Source of the DNA: Candidatus Woesearchaeota archaeon
Lineage (GTDB): Archaea > Nanobdellota > Nanobdellia > SCGC-AAA011-G17 > ARS1403
DNA: 34,492 nucleotides
NCBI GenBank assembly: GCA_016181275.1
Contig: JACOZQ010000013.1
Span: 1 to 34,492 of the forward strand
Direction: 5' to 3'
How positions within the stretch are numbered: the first letter of the stretch is position 1; each line of letters opens with the position of its first letter. Below the pieces are notes generated by a model. That model did not search any database. It was not told where the DNA came from and was given only the letters and a program-made list of their open reading frames with translations. This document shows, piece after piece, positions 10,550 to 24,368 of this stretch. The position numbers and the translations under genes are program-made.

Positions 10550-11700
10550 TTAAGTTATTCCTCTTGGTGTAGATGAGTAAAGAACTGCCCCGAATAATTT
10601 AGCAGTAACTAATGGTTTCTTCAAATCAATATTAAAGATTAATGCTACGACTAAACTTACTAAAACCCAGAGATTATACAAGCAGACAGACCACATGAAA
10701 TAAAATAGTCTTACTGAATAATATTTTGATGTTGTTCTTGCCTTGAAATCTCCTTTAACTCTGTAAGAGGTTTCAATACCCCATCTTTTAGAATACCACC
10801 CAAAATACTTTTGTGTTAAATCCTCTGGGACTAAAATATTTGTTGCAAATACTCTTTTAGTTCTTGTTTATCATCCACAAACACAAGCTTAAACTCTGCT
10901 CTGTTATATTTTCTATAGCCCATATCGTAATCAATAATTTTAGATTGTATCTCTTCATATTCTTTCATAAATCTCTGTATTTTCACATTTCTAATAGCAG
11001 GCATGAGAAATTTAATTCTTAATTCTTTCAGAAGATTAATTATTTCAGAATTGAAAAATCCTCTGTCAAGATAAACATGCCTTATCTTAATTTTAGATTT
11101 GGCATAAGTTATCAGTTTTCTTACAACTTTTGCTTTTGTTGTAAATTTGTGCATTGGCAGAGCAAGTAAAGTAAATCTCTTTCCATTTTCAACAACATTT
11201 ATTGTTATATACCTAAAGCAGTGAGAAGTTCCGTCTTTTGGTTTTGTCTCACAGACCATGTAATCATTTTTATCTCCATAATACATCTGTTCTGTTATAT
11301 CTATTGCTAGATCAACTCTTTCTCTGAATGGTTTGTAATTTGTTGCTATTTTGATTAATCTATCAAAAGTTTTCATGAATAATTTTTCAACATATTCAGA
11401 ATCAAGCTTTTTGATGTGATGAATAACTGTGTTTGATGCAGGAGTGTTTTCTTTCAACAACTCAAAGGTTTTACTTCCATTGTTTGTAAAATCGTGATTC
11501 ATTGCAACATAAGTTAATAAATCAAGAAAATCATCTTCAGAATACTTAGAGTTATGGTGCATTTTAAGATTGATTAAATGATAAACTTTCTTTTTGAGCA
11601 GTTTTGTAATTCCCTTTATCTCTTTAGACTTCAGACTAGGGGAAGATTTATTAAATTCCTTTGTCTTACTTTTGTTTGTGGGGTTCATTCCGGACTCCAT
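10550..11700 (-). mobile_element. ISH3-like DDE transposase gene split by a frameshift near 10855
   Basis: ORF 10831-11700 holds DITEQMYYG (first D) and HVYLDRGFFNSEI (second D). The continuation is in another frame to 10550: VFATNILVPEDLTQKYFGWYSKRWGIETSYRVKGDFKART..., with the W-x-I-E-x-x-Y-R catalytic Glu motif. Confidence 0.85.
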
Positions 11701-11753
11701 AGCCAGAGGAGATGTTGCCTTGAAAACTACGTCTTCTCTGGTTTATCTTATTT

Positions 11754-11783
11754 AGTTAATATATATACTATAAGGTTAACTAA
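11754..11783. repeat. 8-bp inverted repeat TTAGTTAA...TTAACTAA (possible operator or IS end)
   Basis: Seen directly; lies between the transposase start and the promoter of the 11849 HTH gene. Confidence 0.4.
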
Positions 11784-11811
11784 TATATAAACATTATTGC
11801 AGTAGAGTATA

Positions 11812-11826
11812 GAAAAGCTTATATAT
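11812..11826 (+). promoter_or_regulatory. BRE/TATA promoter (GAAAAGCTTATATAT) for ORF 11849
   Basis: Archaeal BRE/TATA-like element roughly 25-30 nt upstream of the ATG. Confidence 0.65.
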
Positions 11827-11848
11827 CCTTAATAGATTTATTAACCAA

Positions 11849-12100
11849 ATGGGTAATATAATATCTCCTCTTCCAAAATGGATTATGAAACATTATTCTA
11901 AACTATGGTCTAAATTCAAGGATAAGCAGTTTACTCATCAACAGGCAGAAGATTTGCTTAAAATAACAAATACAAGCATTGTTCTCTCAAGGCTTAAAAA
12001 ATTCGGATGGTTGGATTTAACATTAGATCCTGAAGACTCAAGAAAAAGATTATATAAATTAAAAGATCCTGCTGAAGCTGTGAAGGAGATGGGGAAATGA
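11849..12100 (+). CDS. Small winged-helix/HTH protein (putative regulator of the R-M operon)
   Basis: TNTSIVLSRLKKFGWLDLTLDPEDSRKRLYKL resembles a wHTH recognition helix plus wing. Confidence 0.6.
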   Translation: MGNIISPLPKWIMKHYSKLWSKFKDKQFTHQQAEDLLKITNTSIVLSRLKKFGWLDLTLDPEDSRKRLYKLKDPAEAVKEMGK

Positions 12101-12147
12101 TAGAAAAATTAAATAAGTATACTATTATTTATAATTAAGAGGGTCAA

Positions 12148-13512
12148 ATGGAATTAGAAATGAAGGAGGAAACAAAAAAGCTTAATGATGTAATAAACTC
12201 TAATAATTTTAGAGATTTAGTTAAAGTTTTAGATAGATTGGGAAGGCTTAGTTCTAAATTTGATAAAAAACCATTGATTAAACTCCTAAATCACGAAAAT
12301 GATAAAATAAGGGCTTTATCTGTAAAAAATTTGGCAAAATTAGAAGATATAACTTTGCTTGAAAATTTTGTAAATCTTATTAATAAGGATCGTAGTTCTG
12401 ATGTTAGAAGAGAATCTGTCTCGGCAATAGGAAGAATGAGAAATCCAATAAATAAAGAAATTTTAATTAAATATTTAGATGATTCTGATCCTGAGGTCAT
12501 ATTACAAGCAGTAAGAGGGTTATTAGTTTTCAAAGATGATCAAAAAGTAAAAAACTCATTGACTAAATTATCTAACCATCCCAATGAAATGGTGCAAGAG
12601 GTTATAAAAAAAGAATTTTATGGAAATGGTACAAATGGTTTTGATCCCAATCATACTTTGTCTCCAGATTTTATGAAAAATGTTACAGTGCAAGGAGATG
12701 TTAGAGATATATTAAAGTTTACTCCAGATGAATCAGTTCATTTAACTTTTACTTCTCCTCCTTATTATAACGCAAGAGACTATTCTATTTATGCAAGCTA
12801 TAAAGAATATCTAGATTTTTTAGAAGAGGTTTTTCAAGAAGTTTATAGAGTTACAAAGGAAGGAAGATTTTTTGTTTTAAATACCTCCCCAATAATAATT
12901 CCTCGTGCAGGAAGGCAATATTCAAGTAAAAGGTATCCAATACCTTATGATACCCATTCAATATTAATAAAAATGGGCTGGGAATTTATTGATGATATTG
13001 TTTGGTTAAAACCTGAGGCCAGTGTTAAAAATAGAAATGCTGGATTTTTGCAACACAGGAAACCATTAGCATATAAACCTAACGCATGCACTGAATGTGT
13101 TATGGTGTACAGAAAGAAAACAGACAAATTAATAGATTGGAACATTAAACAATACGATAAAAATATTGTAGAAGAAAGTAAGATTAATGGGGATTTTGAA
13201 TCTTCTAACCTCTGGAAAATTGATCCTACATTTGATAAAACACATAGTGCAGTTTTTCCATTGGAGCTTTGCAACAAGGTTATTAAGTTTTATTCTTTCA
13301 AAGGAGATTTAGTCTTTGATCCATTTGCTGGTAGTGGAACATTAGGTAAAGCGGCAATAAATTTGGATAGACATTTCTTTTTAACTGAAAAAGAGAAAAA
13401 ATATATAGAAAGAATAAAGGAAAACGTTAGTCAATCAAAGATATTTTCTCAAAATAAATTTTTACCTAAATTTTTAAATGTTAATAATTTTAAGGAAGTA
13501 GTTAAAAAATGA
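12148..13512 (+). CDS. HEAT-repeat fused to a DNA methyltransferase (TSPPY class, probably N4-cytosine)
   Basis: N-terminal HEAT-like repeats (LIKLLNHENDKIRALSVKNLAKLED..., LIKYLDDSDPEVILQAVRGL); C-terminal MTase motifs TFTSPPYYNARDY and DLVFDPFAGSGTLGKAAI. Confidence 0.9.
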   Translation: MELEMKEETKKLNDVINSNNFRDLVKVLDRLGRLSSKFDKKPLIKLLNHENDKIRALSVKNLAKLEDITLLENFVNLINKDRSSDVRRESVSAIGRMRNPINKEILIKYLDDSDPEVILQAVRGLLVFKDDQKVKNSLTKLSNHPNEMVQEVIKKEFYGNGTNGFDPNHTLSPDFMKNVTVQGDVRDILKFTPDESVHLTFTSPPYYNARDYSIYASYKEYLDFLEEVFQEVYRVTKEGRFFVLNTSPIIIPRAGRQYSSKRYPIPYDTHSILIKMGWEFIDDIVWLKPEASVKNRNAGFLQHRKPLAYKPNACTECVMVYRKKTDKLIDWNIKQYDKNIVEESKINGDFESSNLWKIDPTFDKTHSAVFPLELCNKVIKFYSFKGDLVFDPFAGSGTLGKAAINLDRHFFLTEKEKKYIERIKENVSQSKIFSQNKFLPKFLNVNNFKEVVKK

Positions 13513-14429
13513 CAATTACATTAACAGAACAAGTTGCAAAAAAGATAATTCAAAAACTCATTCAAGGAGAAGATTATCGTATTGAAGTAGTTGCATTGAT
13601 AAATGCTCAGTTTCTACAGTATACTATAGATTTTTTCAAGAAAATTGTTGATGCTAAACTAAAAAATAAGGATATTACTGTTGATTGGTACAAAAAAGAA
13701 TTTCTTAATGAAAATCTTTCTGCAAATGAAATAGCAATTAACTCTGGATTAAATAAGAAAACAATCTCAAATATGTATAACTCTGCTACAAAGGAGATAG
13801 TTATTGAGGCTTCAAAGGAACATTATGAAGAACTTTATCAAGCTATACAAAGTCTTGTTGACGGAGAAAATGATTTAGATGTAACCTTGACACTCAAATT
13901 GAAAGGCGTAAGTGTTGATTTAAATGTTAGTGAAAGTTTAATTGTAATAAATACATTAGCTGTTAAAAGGGCGGCCTTAAGAGGTGGTTTGTGGAGTACT
14001 GCTGGAAAAAGAGTTGAAAAACCATTAATGTTAACTTTGTGTAAACTATATTCCGTACCAGAACAGCATTATAGTGTTAGAATAAAAGGATCTCCAATAA
14101 GCGAAGTAGATTTTGAAAGAGAAATCGATTTTTACCTCATTAATGGAAAACAGCAACATAAGTGTGAAGTTAAACTAATGGGCAAGGGAAATCCTGAAGG
14201 TGCTGATGCCGTTATTGCCAGAGACAGCAAGGTTTTTGTTGCTGATAAGTTATCTGATACCAACAAAAAACAGTTGAATAGTCTTAAAGTTGAATGGGTT
14301 GAAATGAGAGATCATGAAGGCTATAAGAGATTCAAGAAAATTTTAGAAAATTTGAAAATTCCTCATAAAGATATTGAGGGTAAGATTGATAAAAAACTAG
14401 AGGCCATTTTCAAAGAGATTTTTAGATGA
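13509..14429 (+). CDS. Probable type II restriction endonuclease, CfrBI-like
   Basis: Overlaps the MTase stop; RGGLWSTAGKRVEKPLMLTLCKLY and PD-(D/E)XK-like EIDFYLINGKQQHKCEVKLMGKG. Family recalled, not searched. Confidence 0.7.
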   Translation: MTITLTEQVAKKIIQKLIQGEDYRIEVVALINAQFLQYTIDFFKKIVDAKLKNKDITVDWYKKEFLNENLSANEIAINSGLNKKTISNMYNSATKEIVIEASKEHYEELYQAIQSLVDGENDLDVTLTLKLKGVSVDLNVSESLIVINTLAVKRAALRGGLWSTAGKRVEKPLMLTLCKLYSVPEQHYSVRIKGSPISEVDFEREIDFYLINGKQQHKCEVKLMGKGNPEGADAVIARDSKVFVADKLSDTNKKQLNSLKVEWVEMRDHEGYKRFKKILENLKIPHKDIEGKIDKKLEAIFKEIFR

Positions 14430-14524
14430 TTAAACCAGAGGTAGAAAAATATTAGATTACCAAAATTGCTAAAAAGGCAAAAATCAAGCGTAAAAAAGCT
14501 CATTTTTAATTCTAAAACCCTATA

Positions 14525-14540
14525 GAAAAGTTTATATATT
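14525..14540 (+). promoter_or_regulatory. BRE/TATA promoter (GAAAAGTTTATATATT) of the small-HTH/HEPN operon
   Basis: Archaeal TATA-like element ~25-30 nt before the ATG at 14562, consistent with a near-leaderless first gene. Confidence 0.7.
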
Positions 14541-14561
14541 ACCTACTTTTTAATTTTCTAT

Positions 14562-14774
14562 ATGGCAAAGAGAGAATTTGAAGATCAGGTCCTTAAAAGA
14601 CTGGACGCTATGATATCTTTGATGCTCGAACCTAAAGCAAAAGACTTAGCAATTAAAGAAAAGGTAGAAATATTATATAATATTGGGCTGGATTACAATC
14701 AGATTGCTGGAATACTCAATAAGACGCCCGGCAATATAGCAGTAATAATAAATTCCTTAAAAAAGAAAAAATGA
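14562..14774 (+). CDS. Small coiled-coil + HTH protein, tandem family member 1
   Basis: LKRLDAMISLM helix, then LYNIGLDYNQIAGILNKTPGNIAVIINSLKKKK (sigma-r4/HTH-like). Confidence 0.75.
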   Translation: MAKREFEDQVLKRLDAMISLMLEPKAKDLAIKEKVEILYNIGLDYNQIAGILNKTPGNIAVIINSLKKKK

Positions 14775-14989
14775 GCGAAACAGAAAAAGATATACTAAAG
14801 AGAATTGACTCCAAACTAGGAGCATTAATAGCTCTTGAGATGGTAGAGGATAAACCAAACACTAATAGAGAGAAAATAAAATTACTTTCAGATTTAGGTT
14901 TAAGCTACAATGAAATAGCATCAATACTTAATGTAAAACCCGGATATGTATCAAAGGAGAAAGCACTACTGAAAAAGAAAAATGGATAA
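14771..14989 (+). CDS. Small coiled-coil + HTH protein, tandem family member 2
   Basis: ATGA overlap with member 1; LKRIDSKLGALIAL ... LLSDLGLSYNEIASILNVKPGYVSKEKALLKKK. Confidence 0.75.
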   Translation: MSETEKDILKRIDSKLGALIALEMVEDKPNTNREKIKLLSDLGLSYNEIASILNVKPGYVSKEKALLKKKNG

Positions 14990-15179
14990 AAAACAATTTG
15001 AAACTATATGTAAGAAGTTAGATAAGATTTCTATAGCTATTGCGGTCCAAAGTATTGAAAATAAGGATGATAAAATTTATGCTTTAAAGAAAGCAGGCAT
15101 GACTTCCTCAGAAGTGGCTATGTTGGTTGGAATGACCGAAAGCGGGGTTCGAGATAATAAAGGATGGAAAAGAAAATGA
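14982..15179 (+). CDS. Small coiled-coil + HTH protein, tandem family member 3
   Basis: Overlaps member 2; CKKLDKISIAIAV ... LKKAGMTSSEVAMLVGMTESGVRDNKGWKRK. Confidence 0.75.
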   Translation: MDKKQFETICKKLDKISIAIAVQSIENKDDKIYALKKAGMTSSEVAMLVGMTESGVRDNKGWKRK

Positions 15180-15394
15180 CTGGAAAAATTGAAAAGAAAT
15201 TGGATATCTTAATAAAATTGGTGGCCTCTAATATGATCAAGGAAGATTCTACTCAAACAGAATCAATTCTCCGGCTAAATAAGCTAGGAATTAGAAACAA
15301 GGATATAGCAGAAATTCTGAATTCAACTGAGAATTATGTTAATCTGATTATATCTAAGAGTAAAAAGAAAGATGATAAAAAACAAAGAAAATAA
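15176..15394 (+). CDS. Small coiled-coil + HTH protein, tandem family member 4
   Basis: ATG at 15176 gives an ATGA overlap with member 3 (ORF track starts at 15164); IEKKLDILIKLVA ... LNKLGIRNKDIAEILNSTENYVNLIISKSKKK. Confidence 0.75.
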   Translation: MTGKIEKKLDILIKLVASNMIKEDSTQTESILRLNKLGIRNKDIAEILNSTENYVNLIISKSKKKDDKKQRK

Positions 15395-15602
15395 TAATAT
15401 AGGAAAAGCTTTAGAAGAAATGAACAAGAAATTAGATGCTCTCATAATTCTTCAGTGTGTTGAAAATTTATCCGGTAATGAGAGATTGAATATTTTAAAA
15501 CATTCAGTAGGTATTAAACCTACAGCAAGGATACTTGAAAAAGATAAAAGTTATTTTAAGAAAAAATTAAAAAGTGGTGTCAAAAATGCCGAAAAAGAAT
15601 AA
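15372..15602 (+). CDS. Small coiled-coil + HTH protein, tandem family member 5
   Basis: Overlaps member 4; MNKKLDALIILQCV ... ILKHSVGIKPTARILEKDKSYFKKKLK. Confidence 0.7.
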   Translation: MIKNKENNNIGKALEEMNKKLDALIILQCVENLSGNERLNILKHSVGIKPTARILEKDKSYFKKKLKSGVKNAEKE

Positions 15603-15762
15603 GGAATTAGAAGATAGGTTAAAAACTATTGAGTATTTATTGGCTGGTCTTTTACTAAAAAAAGAGCCAAATATCAAGCAGGTTGCTAAGATTATTGGTT
15701 GTTCTGATAAAGTTTTGACAAAATTATATCCTTCTAAAGAGATTAAGAAAAATGACAAGTAG
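15586..15762 (+). CDS. Small coiled-coil + HTH protein, tandem family member 6
   Basis: ATG at 15586 (ORF track begins at GTG 15574); LEDRLKTIEYLLAGLLL ... IKQVAKIIGCSDKVLTKLYPSKEIKK. Confidence 0.7.
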   Translation: MPKKNKELEDRLKTIEYLLAGLLLKKEPNIKQVAKIIGCSDKVLTKLYPSKEIKKNDK

Positions 15763-16507
15763 TGGTCTTTCCAAAGAAATAGTCAATGAATTTATTAAAA
15801 GAGGTCATTTTACTAGTGAGCAATCGGTAAAAAATCTTATTTCAAAAATAAAAACAGACGAGGGTTTAAGTTGTAGTCAAAATGCGGTTGCTCAAGTTGT
15901 TGCTAAAATTAAAGGATTTAGCGTCGCAAGAAGATTGAAGAAGGAAGATAAAGTTCCCCCTAATATTTCTGAAATTGTGGCAAAATATGCAAGAAATAAT
16001 AGAGGAAATAATTCTAAACCTAAATCTGCTCCAGATTTCAAAAGAAAAATAAGCAATTCCCAAGATCCGATGGAAAAAGAGGCTTATACAAATGCTTCCA
16101 TATATCCTTATGTTTTTTTGCTTGAGAATAAATTGCGTAATGTTATATTTAATAAATTCAAATCTAATAGCAATTGGTGGACTGACACAAAAATAGTGAA
16201 AAAAGATATTCAAGAATATGCAGAAAAGATTCAGAAGGCAGAGCAAAAATATAAGTGGGTGGATGCAAGAGGAGAACACCCAATTTATTATGTAAATCTA
16301 GAACATTTATTCAAGATAATTGAAAAAAACTGGAATGAATTTAAAAATATATTTAACGACTTGGGGCACTTAAGGACATGGATTGCTGAATGTATACCTG
16401 TTAGAAATTTGATTGCTCATAATATAAAGACAAAAAAACCTGAAAGAGATGATATTATTAAGAGTTCCCGAAAAATTTGTACATTGATAGAAAAAAATAA
16501 AAATTAA
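15752..16507 (+). CDS. HEPN-domain protein (Swt1-like HEPN type), putative ribonuclease effector
   Basis: C-terminal VRNLIAHN matches the HEPN R-X4-H motif; upstream ENKLRNVIFNKF and LGHLRTWIAECIPVRNLIAHN; overlaps member 6 of the tandem array. Confidence 0.75.
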   Translation: MTSSGLSKEIVNEFIKRGHFTSEQSVKNLISKIKTDEGLSCSQNAVAQVVAKIKGFSVARRLKKEDKVPPNISEIVAKYARNNRGNNSKPKSAPDFKRKISNSQDPMEKEAYTNASIYPYVFLLENKLRNVIFNKFKSNSNWWTDTKIVKKDIQEYAEKIQKAEQKYKWVDARGEHPIYYVNLEHLFKIIEKNWNEFKNIFNDLGHLRTWIAECIPVRNLIAHNIKTKKPERDDIIKSSRKICTLIEKNKN

Positions 16508-16541
16508 TAATCTCTCACAGCTTCTCAAGAACCATATAAAA

Positions 16542-18314
16542 TCAACAAAACAACTTTAATGCTTCATCAATCAATATTCTAGTTCTTTTTTCTATATCCT
16601 CAATAACCCATTCTTTTTTATTATGTAGAGGGTAGATTTTTCCATTTAGAAATAAATTATTTTTATAACCTATATTTTTACCTTTTTTGTCTTTTCTATC
16701 TCTTTTTTTATCAAATGAAAGGTTTGATAGATTAGAATTGTATGCGGTCATAGTAAGATTTCCTAATTTATGCACGAATTGTTCCTGTAATTTTTTAGCT
16801 TCTTCCTTATCTCCATTTGCGATCATATTTACCCATTCTTTTGGAAGTCTTTCTCCTTCTGGAAGTATATGTTCTATCGTAAATACATATTTTTCTTTTT
16901 CTCTCCTCCAGAGATCTATTTCACTTTCTTTTGTAAAATTTTCTTCCTCTATCTTACAAAGGATATATCTCGCTGCCTCGCTATTAATTTCGTAAATATT
17001 ACTTTCTAACTTTTCCCTAAAAATATCATCACTAGCATATCTCTCTGGATTTGTTAAGAAATTTCTTATTATTTCAAGACTAATATTTTTCTTATTTTTC
17101 TCACATTCTTCTACTAATCCTACAAATATGTTGTCCAAATTTCTTGTAGCAGGATAATCTGTTAAACTTCTTCTAACAAAATATTTGCTTAAAAAAGAAA
17201 TAGCTTCTTTTAACAATTCTTTATTATTTTTGAATTCAGTAAGCAAATAAAGAAGAAATATATAAGATGGTGCTCCGCTAATATGAAGTAAATCTATAAA
17301 CTCTTTACATAGTTCATCATTTTCTTCTGGATTAATAAATCTACCAAATGTATATGATTTACTTTTAAGATCGTTAAGCAATGAAAGAGCATCTTTTTTT
17401 ATTAATTGCTCATAAATGTTAATTAAATTTGATTTTGTTGCCTTCCCTTCTTTGATTTTTACTTTAATATTATCATTATGCTTAAATGCATTATAATAAT
17501 GCCTTAAAAATCTCTCTTGAATTTTTGGGTCTTCTGTTAAGTTATCAATAACTATTTTCCATTCTTCAAAAGCATCATCCATCGTTCTTGATTTGTTTTT
17601 TTCAAGATTTGAAAGTAAGCTATTTTTTATTAAATCTATAGCAGATAAAGGTACTCCTCTATTATTTATACTTTCAAATAGATTAAAAGCATCAGAATTG
17701 GTGTTTACTTCTATTTTTATTATATGAGAAGAATTAATTTTATCCAATAGTTTTCTAACTTCATTAAAGGGGTATGATTCCAACTTTGTTGAAAAGAAAG
17801 AATAAGCTTTGTATAATCTTCTATTCCCCAAGTTTTTTGGTTTCCCGTCTTTTACATCTAATATCCCAGATTCTTCTAAAATTTCTTTATAATCTTCAAA
17901 ATTATTATTTTGGTAAGAAAGTTCCAGTTTTGTTTCTTTAGGTTTTTTCTTTTGAACTAATCTGTATTTCAAATTTATTAATTCTGATTTGAATTCATCA
18001 TCATCTTTTTTCTCTATAGATAATCTTGCATGAATAGCTGCATACAATAAAGAAAGAGTGGTTAATCTTTGTTGCCCATCAATTATTTCTAATATTGGAC
18101 TGAGAACTGTTTCAGTAGTTTTATTAACACAGATTATTGATCCTAAAAAAGGCCCTTCTTCAGAACCATTTTCTCCCATGATATCATTAAACAGATCATC
18201 CCAATTTTCTTTTCTCCACGTGTATTCTCTTTGATATTTAGGAATAACATATTTTATAGCTAATTCTGGTGAGAATAACTCATGGATTGGGATATCTTTC
18301 GCAGATTGGATCAT
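16542..18314 (-). CDS. DUF262 + DUF1524 (HNH) protein, GmrSD-like type IV restriction
   Basis: YVIPKYQREYTWRKENWDDLFNDI, EIIDGQQRLTTLSLLYAAI, INNRGVPLSAIDLIKN (DUF262); FTIEHILPEGERLPKEW...HKLGNLTMTAYNSNLSNLSFDKKR (DUF1524). Confidence 0.92.
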   Translation of the reverse strand: MIQSAKDIPIHELFSPELAIKYVIPKYQREYTWRKENWDDLFNDIMGENGSEEGPFLGSIICVNKTTETVLSPILEIIDGQQRLTTLSLLYAAIHARLSIEKKDDDEFKSELINLKYRLVQKKKPKETKLELSYQNNNFEDYKEILEESGILDVKDGKPKNLGNRRLYKAYSFFSTKLESYPFNEVRKLLDKINSSHIIKIEVNTNSDAFNLFESINNRGVPLSAIDLIKNSLLSNLEKNKSRTMDDAFEEWKIVIDNLTEDPKIQERFLRHYYNAFKHNDNIKVKIKEGKATKSNLINIYEQLIKKDALSLLNDLKSKSYTFGRFINPEENDELCKEFIDLLHISGAPSYIFLLYLLTEFKNNKELLKEAISFLSKYFVRRSLTDYPATRNLDNIFVGLVEECEKNKKNISLEIIRNFLTNPERYASDDIFREKLESNIYEINSEAARYILCKIEEENFTKESEIDLWRREKEKYVFTIEHILPEGERLPKEWVNMIANGDKEEAKKLQEQFVHKLGNLTMTAYNSNLSNLSFDKKRDRKDKKGKNIGYKNNLFLNGKIYPLHNKKEWVIEDIEKRTRILIDEALKLFC

Positions 18315-18339
18315 TTTTTTATTAAAATAAATCTTCTAT

Positions 18340-19797
18340 TTAAGATTTACCTTTACCCCCTATTCTTTCAAGCTCATTCACAATCAAAACCTCTGCCAAA
18401 GTATCCAACTCACAATATTTCAATAATGCTTTTCTAACATCTTTCTCATTATTATAAGCCATATTATAAAATTCAACCGAAGCAGTTCCACCGTCTCCAA
18501 TCTCCAGATTTTCATAACTTTCACCACATAAAGCAGGAAGAACCTTCTTTATTGAAGCACTACCTTGTTGTTTAGGATTATAATAGCTAAATTCTCTGAA
18601 GGGAATAAGCAAATCAATAATTCTTTTCAGGACATTTTCAATCCATTTCTTATGCTCTGGAAAAGCTTCTGCTAACTCTTTTAATCTTCCAATTTCAAAA
18701 CTCTGATTATAAACAACAACACTTCCTTTATCTCCAATTACTTTTTTTAAAGCCAAAATAAACTCCTCTCTTGGATCTTTATTTCCATTATAAAGAAATT
18801 CGTAATGCTTTGGCTTTTCTCCTTCCTTCTCAACAACATGCAAAGAAAACTGAAAACAAACCTGGGAGTAAGGCTTTAATCCGTCAAACATGGGACAGGC
18901 AGTGGAAAAAGTCTCAAAATCAAGATAATAAAGAGGATATTGCAGTTTCTTCATAAAATCTTTAATTCCTTTTTTATCAACATAAATCTTTCCATTAGTC
19001 TCGCAATCTCTTTGAATCTTCTGTTTCCCATTCAACTTAATATCTTCTGGAATGTCCTTTATTTTTTCAACTCCATTCTCAAATAATTTACAGCTTAATT
19101 TTCCACCACGATAAAGACAAAATACATGATTTTCTGGCAAATCAACACAACCTTCAGCAAAACAATCATGAAAACCATCTTTGAATATTTTAACCAAAGA
19201 AAGTCCTGCTTTTGGAGGAGCTTTCAAAGAAACAAAATCAAATAATTCCTTAATTCTGTTTTCAATACCTTTAATGGCTTTCTCAACATCATCGGTTATT
19301 TCTTCTTTCTCAAATAATTTGTTAACGTCAACTCCTCCATTTCTTACAAAATCCTTGTTTATATGAAGAAGAAAGCATTTTCTTATCTTTAAGCCATTGC
19401 CCTCATAAACATATTTCTGAAAAGAGACATCATGAACATTAATATCCTTGACTTTGGTGCCTGATTTTATTTCTATAATATCCCACTTATCTCCAACAGG
19501 AACTAAAATATCAGCTCTTGAGAAGCAGTTATTAAACTCAAATCCTGCTTCAAATAAAGGCTTTTTCTTCCTCAAAGCCTCTTTACTTTCCTTGATATTC
19601 TCTTTGTAGTCTGTGGGCAAATCTATGCCTTCTCGAAAGAGCATTTTAGCCATTTGACCTACCTTATCTCCTTCCTTGAACTTGAACTCTTCAGCCAGAG
19701 TAGCTTTCCTTATCTTCTCAGGCTGGTTAAAAACAATCCATAAATATCTTGGACATTCCAGACCAACAAGATAATTTGACTTTGTTAAGGCTCTCAT
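18340..19797 (-). CDS. DUF2779-family protein with Cas4/RecB-like nuclease and RNase H-like regions
   Basis: SNYLVGLECPRYLWI N-terminus, WDIIEIKSGTKVKD (PD-(D/E)XK EIKSG), PLYYLDFETFSTACPMFDGLKPYSQVCFQFSLH (DUF2779). Confidence 0.88.
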   Translation of the reverse strand: MRALTKSNYLVGLECPRYLWIVFNQPEKIRKATLAEEFKFKEGDKVGQMAKMLFREGIDLPTDYKENIKESKEALRKKKPLFEAGFEFNNCFSRADILVPVGDKWDIIEIKSGTKVKDINVHDVSFQKYVYEGNGLKIRKCFLLHINKDFVRNGGVDVNKLFEKEEITDDVEKAIKGIENRIKELFDFVSLKAPPKAGLSLVKIFKDGFHDCFAEGCVDLPENHVFCLYRGGKLSCKLFENGVEKIKDIPEDIKLNGKQKIQRDCETNGKIYVDKKGIKDFMKKLQYPLYYLDFETFSTACPMFDGLKPYSQVCFQFSLHVVEKEGEKPKHYEFLYNGNKDPREEFILALKKVIGDKGSVVVYNQSFEIGRLKELAEAFPEHKKWIENVLKRIIDLLIPFREFSYYNPKQQGSASIKKVLPALCGESYENLEIGDGGTASVEFYNMAYNNEKDVRKALLKYCELDTLAEVLIVNELERIGGKGKS

Positions 19798-21592: not shown

Positions 21593-22030
21593 TATACTCT
21601 CCTCCCCCTTTTCCCGCCCGATTTCTTGCAGCCACCATGAGCTACTGGAGTTACATCCTCTATTGTACCAATCTTGAATCCAGACCTTGACAAAGCTCGA
21701 ATTGCTGCCTGAGCTCCCGGACCTGCTGTCATCGGACCTTCATGGCCGCCAGGCGCCCTGACTCGAATCATTAAAGCATTTATTCCTTTTTCTTTGCACT
21801 GCTCTGCCACAATTTTTGCTGCTGTCATTGCAGCTGTCGGCGAACTTTCCATTCTATGAGCTTTTACAACCATTCCGCCAGATGCTTTTGCCAATGTTTC
21901 TGAGCCAGTTATATCCGTAATCCACTTATTCTAATCGCAACTAGAACAATACATGGAGTATAGTATTATTATAACTGGCAAAGATATGGGCAATTCCCCA
22001 TCTTAATTTTCTCTCTCTCTGTTCTACCAT
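21592..22030 (-). CDS. rps11: 30S ribosomal protein S11 (uS11), split by a 31-nt BHB intron; join(complement 22030..21951, 21919..21592)
   Basis: Exon 1 [27 protein letters not shown] and exon 2 [35 protein letters not shown]...RRGRRV; spliced CDS is 408 nt (135 aa). The ORF track shows only exon 2 from an internal TTG. Confidence 0.93.
21920..21950 (-). other. Archaeal BHB-type intron in rps11 mRNA (31 nt)
   Basis: AUUGUUCUAGUUGCGAUUAGAAUAAGUGGAU: UUGUUCUAGU/AUUAGAAUAA 10-bp stem (UGCG loop), bulge GU^A, CCAU/GUGG 4-bp central helix, bulge AU^U. Confidence 0.88.
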
Positions 22031-22034
22031 TAAT

Positions 22035-23456
22035 TCATTTTCCTCCGATAATATTATTTAACCTTTCAAAATCTTGATTTATAAATATATCGTCTATTGC
22101 TATTGTTTGCTCTTTTACAAATTTCTTTATTCTATATTCTAATTGTAAATTGATAGGCATTTCGATGGCTATATAGGTTAATATCTTTGGGAATCTTTTC
22201 TTAATTTTTATAAACCTATAGTCTAAAAGAAATATTTTTTGTTTCCAGTTATTGCCGAATTTTCTGCTTTCAGTATCATGAAATTTTGTCGCTTCTATTA
22301 TTATTATTAAATTGTCTTTATCTTCTATTAATAAGTCAACATTGACGATTCCATTTTTAGTCTCTATGTTTTCATGAATTTTTATCTTTTCCGAAATACT
22401 TTTTTGTTTCTGTAAAAATCTAATAATTTTTTCTTCCTGTTCATTTGGCAACATTTTTTTTAAATTATTTAATGCCCCCTTTCTATAAGAAAACATTGAT
22501 TCTTTTGTGTGCAAAAATTTGTTTATGGCTTCTTCTTCGGATATATTTTTTATTTCTTTATTAAAAAATTCTGAGAATATTTCTGCATTACCTCTGCTTA
22601 ACGAATAAATCAAATTTTCATAATTATATATTTTTGCTTTGCTTATTGAACTAATTTTTCTTTCTAGTTCTCTTTGAGTTAATCCTGCCAATATTCTAAA
22701 GATCATAATTGCTTGCGGATTGTTTTGCAAGATTTCCGGAGTTATTTTTGTGAATTGGCTTGTTTCTTTTTTTATGATTTGAAAATATTTCAAGAAATCT
22801 TCGGCTTTCATTTCTTTGATTCTTTTCCAATTTAATACATTTGTTGGCTTTATTTTTCTTGTATTCTTCCATTTTTGCCATCTATTTTTTAGCTCTTCTG
22901 AATCTATTTCTTTGTAATCTTTCCTGATTATTTTTTCTATTTTTTCTGAATATCTTCTTGCAGTTGCTCTCCATCTTAACTTTCTGTATCCATTTTCTAA
23001 TTCTTCTGCTGTCATTTTTGCTATCTTTGCTTTATTCGCAAATTCTTTCTGTGTCAATCCCAAAATTATTCTTAAAGGCAATATTACTCTACTATCTTGC
23101 AATAATAAGGAGGAAGGAAAATAATTGAAGTTTTTAGTATCCCCTTTTATCTTTTCATACAAATCTTTAAATTCATCAAAACCTTTATTTGATAATTTCT
23201 CAATATGATTTGTTAGATCTGATTCTATCTTGATATTATTTAAGCTGTTATAATTTAATATGAATTCTTTTTCAGTTACTTTGCCTAACAGATTTAGCCT
23301 ATTGAAAAGCTTGAATGTTTTATCGGCGATGTTTTTTGCACCCTTTTCTCCTATTTTTGACTTTTTATGCTCTAAATTATAAATCCATGGATAAGCAATA
23401 TTCAATTCACTTGCAAATTTATTTGTAGTATATCCCGCAATTGTCTTAAATATCAC
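22035..23456 (-). CDS. Three tandem HTH-like repeats + C-terminal nuclease-like domain, inserted between rps4 and rps11
   Basis: Repeats: IVIFKTIAGYTTNKFASELN / ILPLRIILGLTQKEFANKAK / IMIFRILAGLTQRELERKIS; C-terminus GIVNVDLLIEDKDNLIIIIEATKFHD resembles a PD-(D/E)XK core. Confidence 0.7.
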   Translation of the reverse strand: MIFKTIAGYTTNKFASELNIAYPWIYNLEHKKSKIGEKGAKNIADKTFKLFNRLNLLGKVTEKEFILNYNSLNNIKIESDLTNHIEKLSNKGFDEFKDLYEKIKGDTKNFNYFPSSLLLQDSRVILPLRIILGLTQKEFANKAKIAKMTAEELENGYRKLRWRATARRYSEKIEKIIRKDYKEIDSEELKNRWQKWKNTRKIKPTNVLNWKRIKEMKAEDFLKYFQIIKKETSQFTKITPEILQNNPQAIMIFRILAGLTQRELERKISSISKAKIYNYENLIYSLSRGNAEIFSEFFNKEIKNISEEEAINKFLHTKESMFSYRKGALNNLKKMLPNEQEEKIIRFLQKQKSISEKIKIHENIETKNGIVNVDLLIEDKDNLIIIIEATKFHDTESRKFGNNWKQKIFLLDYRFIKIKKRFPKILTYIAIEMPINLQLEYRIKKFVKEQTIAIDDIFINQDFERLNNIIGGK

Positions 23457-23648
23457 TATTGATGAGCTATCTTTAAGAAATATTTCATAAGGAAAATTAG
23501 TGAAATTATCTGTTTCTTTTTTTAATCTTCTAAATATTATTATTGTCTTTTTATATGTTATATTTATAATTGTATTACTATATCTTTAGTATTTATATAA
23601 TCTGCTATTATTCTTTTTAAGAAATAATTAATATCGGTTTTAAGAATT

Positions 23649-24368
23649 TTATTTTTCTTTATGTGTTTTTCTTTCTTCTGGAACTGCTTCCTCTAGTTTT
23701 TCCTCTTTGGATAAATCCTGCTCCTTAACCTGTTCTGGCTGGACTTTCTTAATTTCTTTTTCTTTGACCTCTTTAGCTTTTGTTTCTTTTTTTTGCTTTG
23801 GTTTTGCTTCTTTTGGCTTTACTTCTTCCAAGATTTCAGCTTCAACTTTCTGCCGCTCCTGCGGCCTTTCTGCGTGCATCTCATTTGCTAAAGGCGAGCT
23901 CGGAATGAATGTAACAAAAGACTCTTCAGATAATTTAACCATGTATGATGGTGTGTTGATAACTTGCTCCTTTATTGAAACATGATTGTGGGTTATAAAT
24001 TGCCTGGCTTGCTTTATCGTCTTCGACATTCCTCTTTTGAAAACTATTGTCTGTAATCTTCTATTTAATAAATCTTTTAATGTTAAAGATAAAATATCGT
24101 CTAGGTTTGCTTCTTTTTGTATTAAATTTAACGAGCTCAATTTATTTTTCAGCTGAGCTGCTTCTATATTTGATTGAGGTGAGGGATTTGCCAATAAATT
24201 TTTAGCTTGATCATGTATTGATGCCAGCTTTGATTCTGCCTTCCATATCTCTTTTTTATTTACCAAACCAAATTCTTTTATCAGGTCTTTATCGCGCGCT
24301 ATTCTTTCTTCATTCCAAACCATCAGCGGCCTTCTATATTTTTTCTTTGGTTTTTTTGGATCGCCCAT
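23649..24368 (-). CDS. rps4: 30S ribosomal protein S4 (uS4) with a Lys/Glu-rich C-terminal extension
   Basis: DPKKPKKKYRRPLMVWNEERIARDKDLIKEFGLVNKKEIWKAES ... LNRRLQTIVFKRGMSKTIKQARQFITHNHVSI. Confidence 0.97.
   Translation of the reverse strand: MGDPKKPKKKYRRPLMVWNEERIARDKDLIKEFGLVNKKEIWKAESKLASIHDQAKNLLANPSPQSNIEAAQLKNKLSSLNLIQKEANLDDILSLTLKDLLNRRLQTIVFKRGMSKTIKQARQFITHNHVSIKEQVINTPSYMVKLSEESFVTFIPSSPLANEMHAERPQERQKVEAEILEEVKPKEAKPKQKKETKAKEVKEKEIKKVQPEQVKEQDLSKEEKLEEAVPEERKTHKEK

Follow-up and report, generated by a model that had tools for sequence, protein, structure and literature searches.

How can a ribosomal protein be made from a gene whose reading frame is broken by 31 nucleotides, and how did the interruption come to be there? 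This question is raised by rps11, the gene for uS11, in a window of 34,492 nt (contig JACOZQ010000013.1 of a Candidatus Woesearchaeota archaeon). It touches an older problem. Among archaeal mRNAs, splicing is best documented for cbf5, whose pre-mRNA introns in Desulfurococcales and Sulfolobales measure 16-44 bp and are, in the published account, too short for a nuclease gene (PMC2738675). The origin and spread of such very short mRNA introns have been open since then, because they leave no room for the gene of a mobility enzyme (PMC2738675). One suggestion given there is deletion from nuclease-bearing introns; the same account mentions putative introns of 12 bp in the genome of an archaeal virus, inserted by an unknown mechanism (PMC2738675).

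Left unspliced, the insert brings an in-frame UAG, and uS11 homology resumes in another frame as TDITGSETL. Its removal (Table 1) gives CAU-GUU-ACG (H-V-T) and a 135-aa uS11, and the joined exon sequence around the site is exactly that of intron-less relatives. The first-pass annotation had placed a 31-nt insert in rps11, with the same start codon and a 135-aa product, and its coordinates are exact. It had also considered an intact second rps11 elsewhere: a PF00411 search of the 942-kb assembly gave one copy and no other. The PF00411 alignment of this copy starts at profile position 15.

Table 1 Features of the rps11 locus and of the related nuclease genes
Feature	Location	Strand	Remarks
rps11 (uS11) exon 1	21951..22030	(-)	80 nt; ATG at 22030
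rps11 intron, BHB type	21920..21950	(-)	31 nt; 10-bp stem, UGCG loop
rps11 (uS11) exon 2 including stop codon	21592..21919	(-)	PF00411 match 21607-21924, E 9.2e-33
516-codon ORF, HTH repeats and nuclease domain	22035..23585	(-)	between uS4 and rps11
TATA-box-like TTATATAAATA	23590..23600	(-)	~25-30 nt before the position of the start codon in the relatives
uS4 gene	23649..24368	(-)	flanks the inserted nuclease gene on its 5' side
nuclease homologue, G093	L095 1471-2649	(+)	
nuclease homologue, G067	L096 1435-2661	(-)	

We recomputed the fold of the interrupted region, and it agrees with the bulge-helix-bulge (BHB) architecture proposed at first: a central helix of 4 bp (CCAU/GUGG), flanked by the 3-nt bulges GU^A and AU^U, and an intron stem of 10 bp with the UGCG loop at its end. 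Exon 1 ends in CCAUGU, which contributes the 5' strand of the central helix along with two of the bulge bases; cleavage behind the second base of each bulge would restore uS11. Among the 25 registers tested around the site, the uS11-restoring one is the sole register that joins four central pairs to a long intron stem; in shuffled introns, 4 central bp together with a stem of 6 bp or more occur in ~1e-4 of cases. The MFE of the whole 76-nt region is ordinary (z -0.55), so the evidence lies in the geometry, the reading-frame coincidence and the conservation, not in raw stability. The outer exon helix, already described as weak in the first-pass annotation, has only 1-2 contiguous pairs, and the stable outer helix of a strict hBHBh' motif is lacking. 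Since most cbf5 introns, as described, have a relaxed outer helix as well (PMC2738675), only the strict BHB subtype is excluded. Relaxed BHB motifs are known, according to the same source, mainly as substrates of hetero-oligomeric EndA (PMC2738675); these genomes have one EndA apiece (with none found in the window's own), which counts against relaxed-BHB cleavage. A group I or group II intron was rejected, as its catalytic RNA core takes hundreds of nucleotides and the inserts described here have 29-31.

The insert is not confined to the window's MAG (G000). A family search over 117 relatives revealed two further genomes in which the uS11 match sets in at the same position: G044 (Ca. Woesearchaeota RIFCSPHIGHO2_01_FULL_29_27) and G049 (Nanoarchaeota MM_PC_MetaG.mb.87). 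Both have homologous inserts at the identical codon and phase, 29 nt in G044 and 31 nt in G049, where the site reads CAU-AU^...^A-ACN; in-frame stops and the BHB layout are found again. In all three genomes, and in the very register that restores uS11, a central helix of 4 bp lies between 3-nt bulges on opposite strands; the contiguous pairs of central helix, intron stem and outer helix number 4/6/1 in G044 and 4/9/2 in G049. Across the three carriers, stem pair 3 is G-U, G-C and A-U, and stem pair 6 is C-G, U-A and U-A: two stem pairs are changed on both sides, several others on one side. The exon half of the central helix, CCAT, is present in 3/3 carriers and in 2/36 intron-less genes (p 0.001). 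The BHB reading first put forward for the window, with presence or absence in relatives as one of its checks, is thus borne out by the same codon in two other families, by compensatory changes in the stem and by the uninterrupted exon sequence of the intron-less genes. The interruption is best explained as a minimal BHB intron, and we hold with high confidence that the intron is real; from this evidence in the sequence we strongly infer splicing in vivo.

A pattern scan for uS11 with a 15-45 nt insert at the site, over 84,980 species with one genome each, gave G044 and G049 as the only real matches. Contigs of Bacteroidales, Bacteroidota and Bermanella that fit the pattern do not translate into uS11 and are chance matches. 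Within the order (103 genomes) and a sample of the class (378), only the three carriers match. The rps11 of G022 (L033, minus strand) was considered as a further case and rejected: it has an N-terminal deletion and no BHB. Some 15 conserved N-terminal codons (the WGIAHIYAS region) are missing from it, be it by deletion, an assembly fault or another oddity.

Splicing of this kind calls for an endonuclease and a ligase. The ligase RtcB is present in G000 (E 9.9e-159). As for EndA, the endonuclease that the intron reading leads one to expect, it is present in both other carriers, and none was found in G000. EndA occurs in 109 of the 117 relatives, among them all seven genomes of the window's family. 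In family f1 the gene adjoins RNase Z, with a ~300-aa (309-aa) gene next to it in some genomes, and both RNase Z and this neighbour are likewise absent from G000; the same RNase Z query matched in 10/10 control genomes. Because the conserved neighbours of EndA are missing too, its absence is probably an assembly gap: G000 is a draft MAG of 50 contigs, 92.8% complete, and one gap that took all three genes is the simplest reading.

The first-pass annotation rightly saw the intron but passed over the gene immediately upstream, which is found at this position only together with the intron. In the intron-less relatives inspected, uS11 directly follows uS4; in the carriers, a gene of 516-521 codons stands in between (3/3). 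Its 3' end lies within a few bases of the rps11 start codon or overlaps it. In the window the gene ends in GGAGGA with its stop just before the rps11 ATG, and GGAGG occurs in the last codons of all three genes; it supplies rps11 with its ribosome-binding site. A similar TATA-like stretch precedes the nuclease gene in 3/3 carriers and would be a candidate promoter element. Elsewhere in the window, positions 10831-19797 hold a defence and mobile island inside the ribosomal-protein region, with a DDE transposase-like gene, a HEAT-repeat-fused N6/N4 DNA methylase with a CfrBI-type restriction enzyme, a Swt1-like HEPN protein, a GmrSD type IV enzyme and a DUF2779/RNase H-like protein.

The protein encoded upstream of rps11 has three tandem repeats similar to HTH_3 and the phage 434 repressor, followed by a C-terminal domain modelled as helix, three strands, helix and strand (pLDDT 84, pTM 0.81). 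In the PDB structure comparison of this domain no match reached E 1e-3 (best E 1.6e-3), and the leading ones are mostly PD-(D/E)XK nucleases: Can2, AF1548, BbvCI, R2 retrotransposon endonuclease, EcoO109I, BsoBI and XisH. The core fold is thus predicted to be PD-(D/E)XK-like. An E in the N-terminal helix, a D and a further E are invariant, as are an R and a K downstream. The last motif is mostly E-x-T and not the family's usual E-x-K, which means that the usual lysine is absent or displaced. The proteins of G044 and G049 are 42-46% identical to that of the window, so any transfer must be old. Where these two relatives have their ATG, the window has ATA (23567-23565, minus strand), and its first standard start is GTG 23456; a start there would drop part of the first HTH repeat. 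The window copy may therefore be decaying, or it may use a non-standard start; decay may also fit what is expected of homing genes after fixation.

Homologues of the nuclease were looked for in IMG/VR viral contigs, plasmids and phages, and none was found; searches against PHROGs, PADLOC, NCBIfam and Pfam gave hardly anything but HTH matches (repressor/antitoxin type). A phylum-wide search (five sequences) gave only short weak matches, apparently HTH-type, with E 2.5e-5 to 9e-4. By profile search of 378 genomes of the class, including all 103 of the order, the full-length gene is present in the three carriers only. With about 100 genomes having rps11, the one-sided exact probability of such co-occurrence of intron and upstream gene is ~6e-6, a value that ignores shared descent.

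The only other clear homologues of the full architecture are diverged proteins of 393 and 409 aa from G093 and G067, respectively, both of family f16. Their genes stand tail to tail with rps11, at its 3' end, that of G067 overlapping it, and rps11 there is intact and intron-less. That these homologues adjoin rps11 as well indicates that the gene family is tied to rps11; they are possibly intron-less homing elements with another target in the same gene. A gene without the intron nevertheless counts against the homing module that we propose below. G004, a genome of the window's family, encodes a 495-aa protein (L097 1462-2946, plus strand) whose N-terminus is related and which has two PD-(D/E)XK-like segments; it has no Pfam match and lies beside a FEN1-like gene, not at rps11.

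We compared this distribution with a host tree built from uS13, uS4 and uS11 exon 2, in which some genomes have missing proteins. The carriers belong to three families and each stands beside intron-less genomes: G000 with G001, G006 and G002, G049 with G039, and G044 with its intron-less congener G017. The distribution is sporadic against the tree, and carriers scattered in this way imply several joint gains or losses of intron and gene. Farther from the insertion site, the exon sequence follows the host lineage, exon 1 included. All carriers share the same first codons behind the site, GAT ATA ACT GG, and ATA ACT appears in 4/36 of the others (p 0.004); a pairing constraint would fit this sharing, as would co-conversion over a short stretch. 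We searched for a long co-conversion tract as well and found none: exon 1 resembles the lineage of each host.

We now propose an account of the locus as a whole, in which a minimal BHB intron and a free-standing nuclease of homing type form a mobile module. It is the best explanation we have, and we consider it likely. EndA would cleave the rps11 transcript in both 3-nt bulges, each time behind the second base, and RtcB would ligate the exons into the message of a normal uS11. Together with the adjoining upstream gene, the intron would make up one mobile unit: the nuclease probably recognises, through its HTH repeats, an intact and highly conserved stretch of rps11 (coding for NNTI(I/L)H(V/I)TDITG) and would cut uninterrupted rps11 DNA, and the intron, by splitting the target, would protect the carrier. 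When a cut intron-less rps11 is then repaired on a carrier template, the nuclease gene, the intron and the 80 nt of exon 1 between them would be copied as one block. The arrangement in G093 and G067 could be an intron-less form of the element, comparable to the 'intronless homing' described in PMC6083498. We infer DNA cleavage, protection by the intron and homing. We are somewhat inclined to go further and to see here a two-part mobile element new to Archaea, namely a tiny EndA-spliced intron, devoid of genes and lodged in the gene of an essential ribosomal protein, that is spread by a separate nuclease next to it. This nuclease would belong to a new family of homing endonucleases, with triple HTH and a PD-(D/E)XK-like domain; we lean to the same modest degree towards G093 and G067 as its intron-less version at the other end of rps11.

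The most serious alternative grants the splicing and denies that the HTH-nuclease gene encodes a homing enzyme: it could be, for instance, a domesticated regulator or defence gene, present along with the intron in an ancestor of the order and since lost in most lineages. Vertical descent would agree with a nuclease identity of 42-46%, near the 53% of uS13; the replaced E-x-K lysine and a 3' end that supplies the ribosome-binding site of rps11 also speak for this reading. Such descent would, however, demand repeated joint loss of both elements in some 20 families, and the intron-less homologues of G093 and G067, placed on the other flank of rps11, look like target-site-linked insertion and not like descent of an operon. 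We judge this reading unlikely, though it deserves to be kept in mind.

Two further readings are far less probable. The PD-(D/E)XK-like protein might be a maturase-like RNA nuclease that aids rps11 splicing and not a DNA cutter. The catalytic domain of EndA has a nuclease fold of the same general class as PD-(D/E)XK, and the strict co-occurrence with the intron, on its 5' side, also speaks for this reading. Homologues nonetheless exist in the intron-less G093 and G067, three HTH repeats of phage-repressor type point to duplex DNA, and EndA with RtcB suffices in known archaea, all of which leaves this reading very improbable. Equally slight is the chance that ribosomes bypass the 31 nt by programme, as in T4 gene 60 or the yeast mitochondrial 'byp' elements, even if the hairpin, the stop codon soon after the take-off point and the short length are reminiscent of it. 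Take-off and landing triplets are mismatched in all carriers (GTA/ATT; ATA/TTA; ATA/TTA), and what is conserved instead is the BHB central helix with its 3-nt bulges, the compensatory changes and the exon-side CCAT constraint; the homologous insert in two other families strongly disfavours bypassing as well.

That rps11 is simply broken in this draft MAG, whose 50 contigs and 92.8% completeness could invite such a suspicion, is the least credible reading of all: the same site, structure and flanking gene in two other assemblies, from different families and projects, largely rule it out, exon 2 matches PF00411 well, and the genome has no other rps11.

We return to the mobile module. A minimal BHB intron tied to a nuclease gene in three families makes the question of origin and spread testable, with one protein and two DNA substrates. 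It also shows that in DPANN archaea a core ribosomal-protein gene can bear an intron, and gene callers will truncate uS11 there. If the proposal is true, it carries collaborative homing over from the group I introns of phages to archaeal introns spliced by proteins, and it offers a general way for minimal mRNA introns of archaea to arise and to move; the protein suggests a new homing-endonuclease architecture. Within the scope of our literature search (titles, abstracts and term matches in open journals), no intron in an archaeal ribosomal-protein gene and no free-standing nuclease partner of a BHB intron was reported.

With I-Ssp6803I-type PD-(D/E)XK homing endonucleases, the rps11-linked protein shares the general, predicted fold class; it differs in its multi-HTH architecture and in E-x-T in place of E-x-K, and no sequence relation was found. 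In archaeal rRNA introns that encode LAGLIDADG homing endonucleases, the nuclease gene is located inside the intron. At rps11, in contrast, it is outside and upstream, and the intron is one of 31 nt in an mRNA. The 16S rRNA introns of Thermoproteales, described as encoding LAGLIDADG homing endonucleases, resemble the rps11 intron, as we read it, in combining BHB with homing potential (PMC4496867). The cbf5 introns, as far as they are described in PMC2738675, are alike in being minimal BHB introns of a protein gene, placed at a highly conserved codon, patchily present and of relaxed motif; here the gene is uS11 and the phylum DPANN, and that account of cbf5 has no neighbouring nuclease gene (PMC2738675).

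The closest precedent in logic is F-CphI with the psbA group I intron of cyanophage S-PM2, reported as collaborative homing (PMC6083498, citing Zeng et al. 2009). There too a free-standing nuclease gene adjoins a conserved gene that bears an intron, and the intron interrupts and protects the nuclease site, as we propose for rps11 (PMC6083498). That system is described as a phage one, with a group I intron, a nuclease of Endo VII type and demonstrated cleavage (PMC6083498). At rps11 the intron is of EndA type, the host gene encodes a cellular ribosomal protein and the partner is a PD-(D/E)XK-like triple-HTH protein predicted from sequence. What the locus combines is nevertheless known in kind: a BHB mRNA intron and, as proposed here, collaborative homing.
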